Assembly (NCBI GenBank): GCA_947482115.1
Contig: CANKII010000001.1
Span: forward strand, 512,785-576,784
DNA length: 64,000 nucleotides
Direction of reading: 5' to 3'
Origin: Fibrobacterota bacterium
Lineage (GTDB): Bacteria; Fibrobacterota; Fibrobacteria; UBA11236
Shown here: positions 36,954 through 42,808 of the stretch, in pieces
Position numbering within the stretch: position 1 is the first letter of the stretch
How the letters are laid out: each line of letters starts with the position of its first letter
Notes under the pieces: model-generated
Told to the model about the DNA's origin: nothing
What the model saw: the letters and a program-made list of their open reading frames with translations, nothing else
Databases searched by the model: none
Position numbers and translations under genes: made by a program

Positions 36954-37036
36954 GAAATCATCATGTCATTTTACTTCAATGAACTAGATAATATGCAGAA
37001 CTGTTCAATGACATCGTCTTGCGAAGGAGTCACCCT

Positions 37037-37297
37037 ATGATGATCATTAAATTTTTGTGCGGGGTTGCTTTCATTGGGTCTATTGCTTGGTTTATTGCGC
37101 AACCTAACTATGAACCTGCTATTGCGATAGTCACTTCTTTAATAGCGTTTATTGCCGCTTGGGTTGGGGATAAAAAAATCAAACGAAGAGAGAATCAAAT
37201 CCAGACTATTGCTAAGAACGGTATTGGAATTCAAGCCGGTGGTGATGTCAAGATGGGTGACATTCGTGCAGGTAGAGAGTCAACCGATGCTGAATAA
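37037..37297 (+). CDS. Small two-helix membrane protein with C-terminal IQAGG motif
   Basis: An 86-residue protein with a GAAGGAG ribosome-binding site ten bases before the ATG at 37037. Two membrane helices lie at about residues 3-20 and 28-43, with a short turn between. A basic patch (DKKIKRREN) and a polar tail follow. The tail carries GIGIQAGGDVKMGD (residues 62-75). The next protein starts 11 bases before this gene ends and has ATAIQAGGNVTQIN near its N-terminus. I know no named family for the membrane protein. The paired motif suggests the two proteins bind each other through this segment. The AT-rich composition differs from the methyltransferase gene just upstream. Confidence 0.7.
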   Translation: MMIIKFLCGVAFIGSIAWFIAQPNYEPAIAIVTSLIAFIAAWVGDKKIKRRENQIQTIAKNGIGIQAGGDVKMGDIRAGRESTDAE

Positions 37298-38345
37298 TAA
37301 AGATCAAAGCCAAGACGTTGGAAGTGGTGCAACAGCAATTCAAGCGGGAGGTAACGTAACACAAATAAACGTCGGACTAACACCTTCAGAAGCCAGGTCA
37401 ATTGCTTTGGATGTGGCTAAGGCAACTTTCTATGAGCTTGCTGGTGCAGCAAAGGACATCGCGAGCAATCGAGTTGAAGATATTACGGATCAGGTAATAA
37501 AGAAGCTTCAGGAGAATTTTCCTGCAGGACTTCAAAAGGCAAATGACCCTGATTTTCAGTACGCACTTTTTACCGTTCAAAAGGAATATGCTCGAAATGG
37601 AGATAAAGATCTTGGCGATCTGCTTGTTGATCTGCTTGTCGATCGCAGCAAACAAGATCAACGCGACCTCCTTCAGATTGTGCTAAACGAATCGCTTTCT
37701 ACTGCGCCAAAACTAACTGACACCAATCTTGCTGCCTTAGCAGTGGTTTTTCTGTTTAAGTACACTCAAAATCATGGTATTGGTGATCACGAAAAATTCG
37801 GCGAATATCTAGACAAGCATCTATTCCCATTTGTTTCAAAGCTCTCCAAAAACAGAGCAGGTTATCAGCATTTGGAATTCTCAGGTTGCGGGTCGATAGG
37901 GATTACCGGAAATAAACTTGAACACATTCTAGGAAAAATTTATCAAGGGCAATTCTTAAAGGGTTTTGGCCAATCTGAGATATCGAATCGAGCAATCAGT
38001 GTTGGGCTGGATTCTCGTTTTTTCATACCGTGTCTCAATGACCCATCAAAACTACAGGTTAACGCGAACAGCAAAGAAAGCCTAGAGAAATATCTCGATA
38101 CAGAGGGTGTTTTCACCGAAGACAAAACCAAGATTTTGCAGTTATTCGATTTAGGCAAAATGAATGAATCTGAAATAAAAGGAAAGGTTATAGCTATTCG
38201 TCCTTACATGACTGACGTTTTCGAAATGTGGGGAAATTCAGCCATGCAGACATTCACATTAACGAGTGTTGGAATGGCAATTGGACATGCGAACATCAAG
38301 CGTTTGGTTGGAGAATTTGCGAGTTTAGCAATCTGGATTAACTGA
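37287..38345 (+). CDS. Soluble protein of the LPO_1073/Vpar_1526-like type
   Basis: A 352-residue protein starting at the ATG at 37287, which overlaps the upstream gene by 11 bases. The N-terminus (residues 1-30) is polar with the motif ATAIQAGGNVTQIN. An alpha-helical body follows, starting TPSEARSIALDVAKATFYEL and including KLQENFPAGLQ, a segment reading GDKDLGDLLVDLLVDRSKQD, and a helical C-terminal half. From memory this matches proteins labelled LPO_1073/Vpar_1526 family, whose function is unknown. I cannot verify the name here. No catalytic motif is visible. A role as a sensor or adaptor for the upstream membrane protein is inferred from the shared motif and overlap. Confidence 0.72.
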   Translation: MLNNKDQSQDVGSGATAIQAGGNVTQINVGLTPSEARSIALDVAKATFYELAGAAKDIASNRVEDITDQVIKKLQENFPAGLQKANDPDFQYALFTVQKEYARNGDKDLGDLLVDLLVDRSKQDQRDLLQIVLNESLSTAPKLTDTNLAALAVVFLFKYTQNHGIGDHEKFGEYLDKHLFPFVSKLSKNRAGYQHLEFSGCGSIGITGNKLEHILGKIYQGQFLKGFGQSEISNRAISVGLDSRFFIPCLNDPSKLQVNANSKESLEKYLDTEGVFTEDKTKILQLFDLGKMNESEIKGKVIAIRPYMTDVFEMWGNSAMQTFTLTSVGMAIGHANIKRLVGEFASLAIWIN

Positions 38346-38387
38346 CCATATTTAATCAAGCCGTCGATCAACCGCCCTCTGGAACAA

Positions 38388-38477
38388 TCAAGGCGACACC
38401 AGCACAACACTTTTTGTCTGACCGCCCACAGCCACCAGTTTACTGCCATTTGAGGCAACGGAATTAAAAGCCAGTAC
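38388..38477 (-). pseudogene. Fragment: C-terminal tail of a BNR/sialidase-like repeat protein
   Basis: About 29 codons on the minus strand read FNSVASNGSKLVAVGG followed by a short strand and a TGA stop at 38390. This wording is typical of the last repeat of BNR/beta-propeller proteins. An in-frame stop lies directly upstream and no start is present. It sits between the AT-rich two-gene locus and gpmI, so it may be the remains of a gene interrupted when the locus arrived. Confidence 0.45.
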
Positions 38478-38522
38478 TCAAAAAGGTATATTTGGCTTCC
38501 CGCGTTTTTTCGGAGAAATACC

Positions 38523-40275: not shown

Positions 40276-41505
40276 ATGTCTTTTAAGTCTTATCCAGCTT
40301 TGCTTGCGTTTGTCGTTGCAACTTTGCCTTTGGCCTCTCAGGCTCAGAAGGTGATGCCGGTATTGGTTTCCACCAAGTACACGTTGACCATGGGAAACAT
40401 GAGTTTCCAAGCCACCGCCAAAAACAGCGGTCGCATCCAGTCGGTGAAGCATTCCGGAACGGAAGTGCTTCACCAGGATACGGGTAGTGCGACGAGTTAT
40501 GGATCGACTTTTTGGCCCAGTCCGCAAGCCGTTTGGAACTGGCCGCCTCCTGCTGCCATAGATGCAAACGCTTTCACGGCCTCCATCGACCCGGATTCCA
40601 CGATCAGCTTTTACAATTCGGGGGCGGTGGATGCGACCACCAAAATCCGTGTGCACAAGACCTATTGGGCCAATATCGCAGACTCCTCATTCAACATGCG
40701 TTACACCATGATCAACACCGGCACGGCGCGCCCTTGGGCTCCGTGGGAAGACACGCGTATCGATACGGGTGGCATCTACTTGTTCCCCAAGGGAACGGAC
40801 GCCATTACCGGAGCCATTGGGACTTATACATCAGTGGATACCGGTGGCATCGTCTGGTATCAGCACAACAACAACAATCTTCCCGGGAGCGGAACCAACA
40901 AGTTCTACGCAGATGGTTCGAAGGGCTGGTACGCCCATGTTTACGCCAATCGTCTCCTCCTCATCAAGAAGTTCAAGGATGCACCTGCTTCCAAGAAAGC
41001 CCCAAGCCCCGAGGATGAGATTGAGTTTTACTCCACCAACAAGCCGCTCAACGCGACTTCCTTCATCGAAATGGAAGCGCAGGGAGCCTACGACACCATC
41101 AAAACAAATGACTCCGTCAGTTGGGATATGAAATGGCTTGTCCGGAAACTTCCAGATAACGTGTCCGTGACCCTGAATAATCCGCAGATAGTGAGTTATA
41201 TCAACCAAGTCCTCGCGGGTTCGACCACAGCCCTAACTCAGCAATCCAAAGCTGCAGGTTTTGAAATGAAATATTCCACCCGTGAAGTCACTTTGGATTT
41301 GCGCGAAGCCTCTTCCCTGTCCCTTTCCGTTGTGAATATTCAGGGTCGGGAAATCGCACGACTCCATTCGGGAAAACTCTCCGCAGGATCGCATATTTTT
41401 CCGTTGAATCAAAGTGGATTTCCGAACGGTGTGAACTGGCTGGTGATACAGGATTCCAAACACCGTATCGTATCCCAACAAATGCTGGTGCGCCTGAAAA
41501 ACTGA
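40276..41505 (+). CDS. DUF4380-like secreted protein with C-terminal sorting domain, copy 1
   Basis: A 409-residue exported protein with a signal peptide (about residues 1-22, ending SQAQK). The main domain is beta-rich and contains NSGRIQSVKHSGTEVL, GSTFWPSPQAVWNWPPP and TYWANIADSSFNMRYTMINTG. This layout resembles DUF4380, related to galactose mutarotase-like folds. The last about 70 residues (SSLSLSVVNIQGREIARL to LVRLKN) form a sorting-type domain like those of type IX-exported or Fibrobacter secreted proteins. A GGGAG site precedes the ATG. A paralogue follows directly, so the pair probably arose by tandem duplication. Confidence 0.75.
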   Translation: MSFKSYPALLAFVVATLPLASQAQKVMPVLVSTKYTLTMGNMSFQATAKNSGRIQSVKHSGTEVLHQDTGSATSYGSTFWPSPQAVWNWPPPAAIDANAFTASIDPDSTISFYNSGAVDATTKIRVHKTYWANIADSSFNMRYTMINTGTARPWAPWEDTRIDTGGIYLFPKGTDAITGAIGTYTSVDTGGIVWYQHNNNNLPGSGTNKFYADGSKGWYAHVYANRLLLIKKFKDAPASKKAPSPEDEIEFYSTNKPLNATSFIEMEAQGAYDTIKTNDSVSWDMKWLVRKLPDNVSVTLNNPQIVSYINQVLAGSTTALTQQSKAAGFEMKYSTREVTLDLREASSLSLSVVNIQGREIARLHSGKLSAGSHIFPLNQSGFPNGVNWLVIQDSKHRIVSQQMLVRLKN

Positions 41506-41533
41506 AGTTGAGTTGAACCCCCGAGGGATGTGC

Positions 41534-42808
41534 ATGCGATTTGAATTCAATAAACTTCCTGCGTGCTTGCTTCTCGCTCTGACGATGATTCCGGCATTGT
41601 CGCAAGCACAAAAGGTTCAACCGGTGGCAAGCGGCAATAATTACAAGCTGATTGCCGGACCGGACACGCTGACAGTGGGACCCGCTGCGGCTGGTCGCAT
41701 CCGCTCGCTAAAATACCAAGGCACCGAACTTCTCCTTGCATCGGGAACCCTTAACTGGGGTTCTACGTTTTGGCCCAGTCCACAAGCCTATTGGACCACC
41801 GCATGTAAAAACACAATCAACAACGGATGTTGGCCTCCTCCCGTAAATCTGGACGCAGATGCCACCAATTACACGGGAGGGCTCGTCGCATCAGATACCA
41901 CAGTTGCCTATGTGGGGATAGCGGATAACGTTGCAACCGGAACCCACTTAAGTTTTCGAAAAAAATTCTGGGCCAATGCCAAGGACTCCTCCTTCACGAA
42001 TCATTACACGATGATTAACACATTCACATCTTCCGTCGCCTATGCGCCGTGGGAAATCACGCGATTTCCGGGTGGCGGACTCACTTTTTATCCCACCGGT
42101 TCGGATACCTTAAGAGGCACCCAAGCGCTGCGCAACATGACACGGGATACCCTCGGTGTGAGATGGACCGTTTACGACAGTGCTACCGTTCCCGCCGGTG
42201 GAACTCCAAAAATTTGGGGTGATGGCGGTACTCCCGGATGGTATGCCCATGTGGACAAAAACCGGGTTCTTTTCATCAAGAAATTCAAAGACACTCCCTT
42301 TGCCAAAAACGCGCCCTACAATACCAGTGAAAGCGAATGTGAACTGTACATGGCTAATGCCAAGAACTATCAGGAGATGGAATTGCAGGGCTCGTTTGAT
42401 ACGATCCCCGCCAACGATTCCTCGACTTGGGATGTGAAGTGGTTTGCGCGCAAACTACCGGACAGCGTCAGCATCGGCCGAAACTCCGGCCTTCTGAATT
42501 TCGTGAATCAGGTCATCAGCGGTTCCCTCACCGCCATAAAAATATCCGCCGCACCGTCCATTGGATTCGACGGTTCACACTCCTTCGCCTCCCTAACACT
42601 TGAGAAGGAGACTCTGATTTCACTGTCGCTGGTGAATTTACAGGGTCGGGAAATCAGCCGGATTTACACGGGCAGACTTTCGGCAGGACAGCATCGCTTT
42701 TCGTTAAACACGGAGCACCTGTCCTCAGGGGTCCATTGGCTGGTAGTTCGTGACCTGACCAACGGACAGCTTCTGTCCCAAAGGATGAAGGTTCGGCTCC
42801 GGAATTAG
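41534..42808 (+). CDS. DUF4380-like secreted protein with C-terminal sorting domain, copy 2
   Basis: Paralogue of the preceding gene (about 424 residues), with signal peptide MRFEFNKLPACLLLALTM ending SQAQK. It keeps AAGRIRSLKYQGTELL, NWGSTFWPSPQAYW and FWANAKDSSFTNHYTMINTF. It adds a cysteine-containing insert (ACKNTINNGCWPPP) near the WPPP site and ends with the same kind of sorting domain (LVNLQGREISRIYTGRLSAG). I start it at the ATG at 41534, seven bases after GAGGG. ATGs at 41528 and upstream are badly spaced. The copies have diverged clearly, so the duplication is not recent. Confidence 0.75.
   Translation: MRFEFNKLPACLLLALTMIPALSQAQKVQPVASGNNYKLIAGPDTLTVGPAAAGRIRSLKYQGTELLLASGTLNWGSTFWPSPQAYWTTACKNTINNGCWPPPVNLDADATNYTGGLVASDTTVAYVGIADNVATGTHLSFRKKFWANAKDSSFTNHYTMINTFTSSVAYAPWEITRFPGGGLTFYPTGSDTLRGTQALRNMTRDTLGVRWTVYDSATVPAGGTPKIWGDGGTPGWYAHVDKNRVLFIKKFKDTPFAKNAPYNTSESECELYMANAKNYQEMELQGSFDTIPANDSSTWDVKWFARKLPDSVSIGRNSGLLNFVNQVISGSLTAIKISAAPSIGFDGSHSFASLTLEKETLISLSLVNLQGREISRIYTGRLSAGQHRFSLNTEHLSSGVHWLVVRDLTNGQLLSQRMKVRLRN

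Follow-up and report, generated by a model that had tools for sequence, protein, structure and literature searches.

A shared tail motif pairs small membrane proteins with the LPO_1073 family in a candidate two-gene defence system

A sequence motif pairs small membrane proteins, which carry it on their C-terminal tail, with soluble proteins of the LPO_1073/Vpar_1526 family (NF045477), which carry it at the N-terminus. Since this pairing turns up repeatedly in distantly related bacteria, and E. coli prophages carry it at a known anti-phage hotspot, the two genes probably represent a previously undescribed defence system, for which they are presented here as a candidate. The pair was initially noticed in a 64,000-nt stretch of a Fibrobacterota genome (contig CANKII010000001.1), hereafter called the window.

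Features of the locus are listed in Table 1. The GC content of the two-gene block is 0.39-0.46, against approximately 0.50-0.56 in the flanks. In a genome of the same genus (L074), the same two flanking genes, whose names are inferred from sequence, directly abut with no block between them; the block is therefore an insert. The preliminary description had placed an AT-rich block amid housekeeping genes and had the second gene overlap the first. Both points were borne out, and the positions that it gave for the two genes and the two motif copies proved exact when the sequence was read again. Shine-Dalgarno-like sequences, read by eye, precede both genes. Promoter and terminator scans gave scores no better than those of shuffled sequences, and an Rfam search returned no match. 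Elsewhere in the window, tandem genes at 40276-41505 and 41513-42808 encode apparently paralogous, secreted-looking proteins that have a C-terminal region in common and to which no function was assigned.

Table 1. Features of the two-gene locus (positions are those of the window)
Feature	Position	Strand	Basis
Low-GC two-gene insert between RNA-methyltransferase-like and phosphoglycerate-mutase-like genes	36954..38522	.	GC profile, same-genus comparison
Shine-Dalgarno-like AAGGAG, 7 nt 5' of the small gene	37024..37029	+	Sequence reading
86-aa two-TM protein P0001, membrane anchor or effector	37037..37297	+	ORF, AlphaFold2, phrog match
Predicted TM helix 1, residues 2-21	37040..37099	+	AlphaFold2
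Predicted helix 2, residues 25-52, K/R-rich at its end	37109..37192	+	AlphaFold2
Shared motif, membrane-side copy QTIAKNGIGIQAGGDVKM	37202..37255	+	Alignments, tail matching
11-bp gene overlap, translational coupling possible	37287..37297	+	Gene coordinates
352-aa soluble LPO_1073/Vpar_1526 family protein (NF045477), P0002	37287..38345	+	Profile match, E 3.5e-92
Shared motif, soluble-side copy QDVGSGATAIQAGGNVTQ, on disordered N-terminal tail	37311..37364	+	Alignments, AlphaFold2, tail matching
All-helical LPO_1073 domain, no fold relative detected	37374..38339	+	Profile, AlphaFold2, fold searches

Both protein assignments of the preliminary description, a two-helix membrane protein followed by an LPO_1073/Vpar_1526-like protein, held up. 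AlphaFold2 models P0001 as two confident helices followed by a disordered tail, and the K/R-rich end of the second helix would place this tail in the cytosol by the positive-inside rule. No Pfam family reached the cut-off with this protein; a weak similarity was found to the phage family phrog_27656 (E 3.3e-6). P0002 is a full-length NF045477 protein (308.7 bits against a cut-off of 45; profile positions 1-257 of 257), modelled with residues 1-29 disordered ahead of the helical domain (model pLDDT 69). Neither a Pfam nor a PADLOC domain was found in P0002, nor an NTPase domain; sequence and fold searches with the LPO_1073 domain gave no significant match in PDB or BFVD, and PADLOC models matched neither protein of the pair. 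Family members span about 275-370 aa. A literature search did not find a publication assigning a function to NF045477.

The similarity of the two tails had been described as a seven-residue sequence, IQAGG[DN]V, contained in GIGIQAGGDVKMGD on the membrane side (37220-37261) and in ATAIQAGGNVTQIN on the soluble side (37329-37370). The pairing is real, but its extent was underestimated: aligned relatives define a motif of about 18 residues with two glutamines, Q-x9-Q-A-G-x-[DN]-[VI]-x-[IV]. The glutamines, ten residues apart, are invariant and equally spaced in two-TM membrane proteins and in soluble proteins, the residue tally being anchored on them and hence not independent evidence for them. 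The 7-mer was rejected as a search signature; among 399 Pseudomonadota genomes it turned up in 30, most occurrences being haemagglutinin-type repeats and unrelated or spurious frames. Its frequency in such repeats, together with a look-alike in phage fibres, could suggest that IQAGG[DN]V is a common, generic beta motif and the match a coincidence. The extended motif argues against this. The best ungapped match between cognate tails exceeded shuffled sequences in all 14 pairs tested, with a score of 41 for the window pair (shuffle null 21.1 +/- 4.2, p ~0.001) and p values down to ~3e-7 for the remaining ones. Moreover, HMMs built from TM proteins only (A3 and A4, the former containing the N-terminal TM and motif part of two fusions) matched the N-termini of soluble partners in searches of whole genomes (E = 8.9e-5, 3.9e-5 and 4e-3). 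With the recurrence of the pairing at 18 of 19 loci (see below), we consider a chance match to have a negligible probability, and the locus survey refutes it.

This survey comprised 19 LPO_1073 loci from four or more phyla, all found without using the TM protein; the count includes two sets of near-duplicates (L019/L035 and G105/G117) and leaves out L088, found via the TM model, and the below-cut-off matches L007 and L008. At 16 loci the gene just upstream encodes a small TM protein whose motif matches, two loci are fusions and one has neither. How often a motif-bearing membrane protein would be found upstream of the homologues was the question raised at the outset, with the prospect that most genomes might lack such a neighbour; a TM segment and motif, upstream or fused, are in fact present in 18 of the 19 cases. 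Nine loci came from GTDB genomes, which were scanned with an LPO_1073 alignment; they belong to Geobacteraceae, Curvibacter, Cyanobacteria, Neptuniibacter, Anaerolineaceae, Vibrio, Pseudomonas, Azonexus and Stenotrophomonas, and each has the small TM protein with the motif just upstream. Searching whole genomes for the family brought in further loci from the phylum of the window, from two more Pseudomonadota genomes and, in one case, from the phylum to which the cyanobacterial hit belongs; the E. coli pair was taken from plasmid and prophage records. Inspection of small ORFs revealed the membrane partner at G105-C2, G117 and G115. The sole locus of the 19 with neither a TM neighbour nor a fused TM segment is G674 (L138:5280-6772), where the LPO_1073 gene is followed by one for a CAP12/Pycsar-type TIR domain protein.

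The family is rare among the genomes scanned (above the cut-off in 3 of 399 Pseudomonadota genomes and in 5 of 168 from the window's own phylum). Two observations speak for mobility: identities with proteins from other phyla reach 69%, and the site of the window pair is empty in the same-genus genome. Scans of viral contigs with P0002 and with A2 yielded no match; the same scan with the E. coli protein yielded five P2-type contigs, and a scan with the motif yielded the P2 pairs plus phage fibre proteins. No relatives were found by tblastn against a phage collection, a search of plasmids for relatives gave two E. coli plasmids only, and a composite one-TM sequence matched neither plasmids nor phages. 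The fibre-like proteins (L068, L069 and L072, from IMG/VR) carry INGVNT[IL][NT]IQAG[DQ]NI[SN]I, a motif look-alike that in one case directly follows collagen-like repeats, in a probably beta-rich setting.

The membrane partners fall into two unrelated anchor types, one with two TM segments (window, E. coli) and one with a single segment (ENKEWLFSGIGI...). In the LPO_1073 tree, neither type is monophyletic and, by the starred branches, each must have changed at least twice, a result to be taken cautiously given some long branches. By these sequence comparisons, unrelated anchors appear to have been exchanged while the motif was retained. Within pairs, the two motif copies co-vary: cognate copies score 54.7 against 39.9 for mismatched ones (16 pairs; permutation p about 5e-6), and the advantage persists within the one-TM type (p = 7e-4), these p values overstating certainty since related sequences are not independent. 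Cognate matching is no better than mismatched within the two-TM type (p = 0.23), because its motifs are too alike. An extreme case is the G115 pair, in which both partners share an entirely different motif, NKNNTIAGRDAYVVKGNGNKI / NDQDVIAGQDANVIKGNENSI, scoring 61 with each other against at most 36 in mismatches and matching no other pair. Two natural TM-motif-LPO_1073 fusions (L003, L005) retain the motif, and at G105 tandem LPO_1073 copies follow a single anchor. Uncharacterised genes with no Pfam match adjoin fused TM-motif-LPO_1073 genes at L134:9389-10645 and L120:7500-9279.

The motif also occurs with a different soluble protein. When 369 Gammaproteobacteria were searched with the one-TM model, a 76-aa TM and motif gene was identified that overlaps the gene for a 1268-aa TPR-GreAB-C-PIN protein (PF24407, PF20698, PF24388), which itself starts with the motif (12.9 bits with the motif HMM, 0 of 1000 shuffles as good); a permuted GreAB-C gene lies next downstream. 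The arrangement in this one gammaproteobacterial genome is that of the LPO_1073 pair, a one-TM protein with the motif preceding a partner whose own N-terminus is the motif, whereas the soluble domains are unrelated. Of four PF24407 loci examined, one had the motif pair and three were without it. A two-TM profile search of 220 genomes of one order returned a single TM-motif-TPR protein (L126) and no new LPO_1073-free pair. Such a protein, of 852 aa, is encoded at L137:3256-5814 (G1167; also L126) in what appears to be a mobile element, with resolvase- and MerR-like genes beside it; there the motif links a TM helix to a repeat domain. The existence of fused forms could mean that a TM-motif-LPO_1073 gene was once split with duplication of the motif, which would then have no present role in interaction. 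We hold this to be very improbable, since the co-variation within pairs, the conservation of both copies across phyla, and the presence of the motif on unrelated anchors and on a different soluble partner all need ongoing selection.

In E. coli the pair was found in 6 of 5,426 genomes, each time between the replication gene A and the portal gene Q of P2-like elements; the six carriers include two near-identical plasmid records, for one of which the context was inspected. The main text of PMC9122126 describes this gpA-gpQ site as an anti-phage hotspot that also carries non-defence cargo. At L002 the pair adjoins a complete Hp1-Hp2-Hp3 set, in our reading the three-gene system against P1 described there, and these genes, identified by their accession or their position, also lie beside the pair in L144-L146. 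One E. coli prophage has no other cassette of appreciable size at the hotspot. The E. coli pair is a separate cassette, usually beside the validated Hp1-Hp2-Hp3. Like the anti-phage cassettes described in the main text of PMC9122126 (old-tin, Hp1-Hp2-Hp3 and others), it occupies the gpA-gpQ site and is likewise interchangeable; unlike them, it is not in PADLOC, and a test of it against phage was not found in that main text. In E. coli PEC422 (L143:2801-4570), two other uncharacterised genes replace Hp1-3 beside the pair.

Some other copies reside in defence loci. At G105 the gene order is HsdR-HsdM-HsdS-TM-LPO-LPO-AlbA (type I RM; Schlafen AlbA); at G115 the pair is preceded by a TIR-nSTAND gene and followed by DUF4365 and YhcG nuclease genes; in Stenotrophomonas, an AriA-like ATPase is a neighbour. 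The window copy is flanked by housekeeping genes instead of lying in a defence island.

The best explanation of these data, and in our judgement a fairly probable one, is a horizontally moving two-gene module, likely anti-phage and of the abortive-infection type, in which stacking of the motif joins the LPO_1073 protein to the membrane protein. The product of the first gene would be a small protein of the inner membrane whose cytosolic tail is flexible, that of the second a helical, soluble protein whose N-terminal tail is likewise flexible; both tails bear one copy each of the beta-prone motif. The two copies may stack as a homotypic beta-arch, possibly an amyloid, and so bring LPO_1073 to the membrane. 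Upon infection, the LPO_1073 part would sense a phage cue and drive clustering of the TM protein, which in its clustered form would damage the membrane. Amyloid formation by the motif is plausible. Since there was neither a PADLOC match nor a fold match, it is by analogy that we propose the sensing and effector roles.

The main rival to this phage-triggered membrane effector is a constitutive tether, in which the motif would be a plain dimerisation strand holding LPO_1073, itself the effector, permanently at the membrane, with no amyloid and no templated signal. The two fusions indeed show that function tolerates permanent attachment, exchange between one-TM and two-TM anchors is what a mere anchor would be expected to allow, and AlphaFold2 models both tails as flexible linkers. 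However, the motif is kept in the fusions, where a heterotypic tether would be redundant, which points to self-assembly, and paired tails encoded by overlapping genes are the layout of amyloid signalosomes. We incline, with some reserve, to the phage-triggered effector and regard the tether as rather unlikely. The overlapping genes, the small hydrophobic first product and the mobile distribution would also suit a toxin-antitoxin pair in which LPO_1073 neutralises a small membrane toxin via the motif. Yet fusion of both parts in one chain is unusual for a toxin and its antitoxin, LPO_1073 proteins are large for antitoxins, and tandem copies stand behind one anchor at G105; this alternative seems improbable.

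The link between NF045477 and a motif-sharing membrane partner is described here and provides a first function hypothesis for the family. The E. coli P2 cassette, whose two genes encode WP_000687980 and WP_000490525 within about 1.1 kb, brings this hypothesis within reach of tests in a laboratory strain. So far, NLR–Bell pairs are the main bacterial case for which amyloid-type motif pairing has been described. Should a non-NLR soluble protein be joined to bare anchors by the same logic, wiring by motif tags would be a more general design of immune modules, and sequence pairing of tails would offer a means of finding them. Tentatively, we envisage a class of immune modules of prokaryotes, outside NLR-Bell, in which tiny membrane proteins, exchangeable as anchors or effectors, might be wired to unrelated soluble proteins (LPO_1073, TPR-GreAB-C-PIN and perhaps more, with proposed sensor or effector roles) by co-evolving homotypic beta/amyloid tags, a 'barcode' for each operon.

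Among known motifs, RHIM, fungal PP and BASS3 resemble the present one in that N/D and beta-branched residues come after [IV]-Q-[AV]-G. The spacing is one residue shorter here, with N/D at Q+4 instead of Q+5 as in the BASS3 peptide ORT49035, and the present motif has its two glutamines ten residues apart. On a proven BASS3/RHIM-like peptide the motif profile scored 2.4 bits, with 90 of 1000 shuffles as good, which is not significant; identity with BASS3/RHIM was rejected, and the RHIM-like character suggested at first for I-Q-x-G was not sustained. The soluble partner differs as well from that of BASS1-10. The protein with the N-terminal motif is an NLR (NTPase plus repeats) in those systems and LPO_1073, which is not an NLR, in the pair; the counterpart of their Bell-domain protein is a bare one-TM or two-TM anchor, in the window two helices and a tail, that matched no Pfam family at the cut-off. 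The layout is nonetheless the one recognised in the preliminary description and documented for bacterial amyloid signalling (PMC7889193), where a small membrane protein ends, and its partner begins, with similar motifs, the two genes being adjacent or overlapping. Like the NLR and Bell pairs of BASS1-10, the LPO_1073 pair thus has a short, beta-prone tail motif common to the products of adjacent or overlapping genes.
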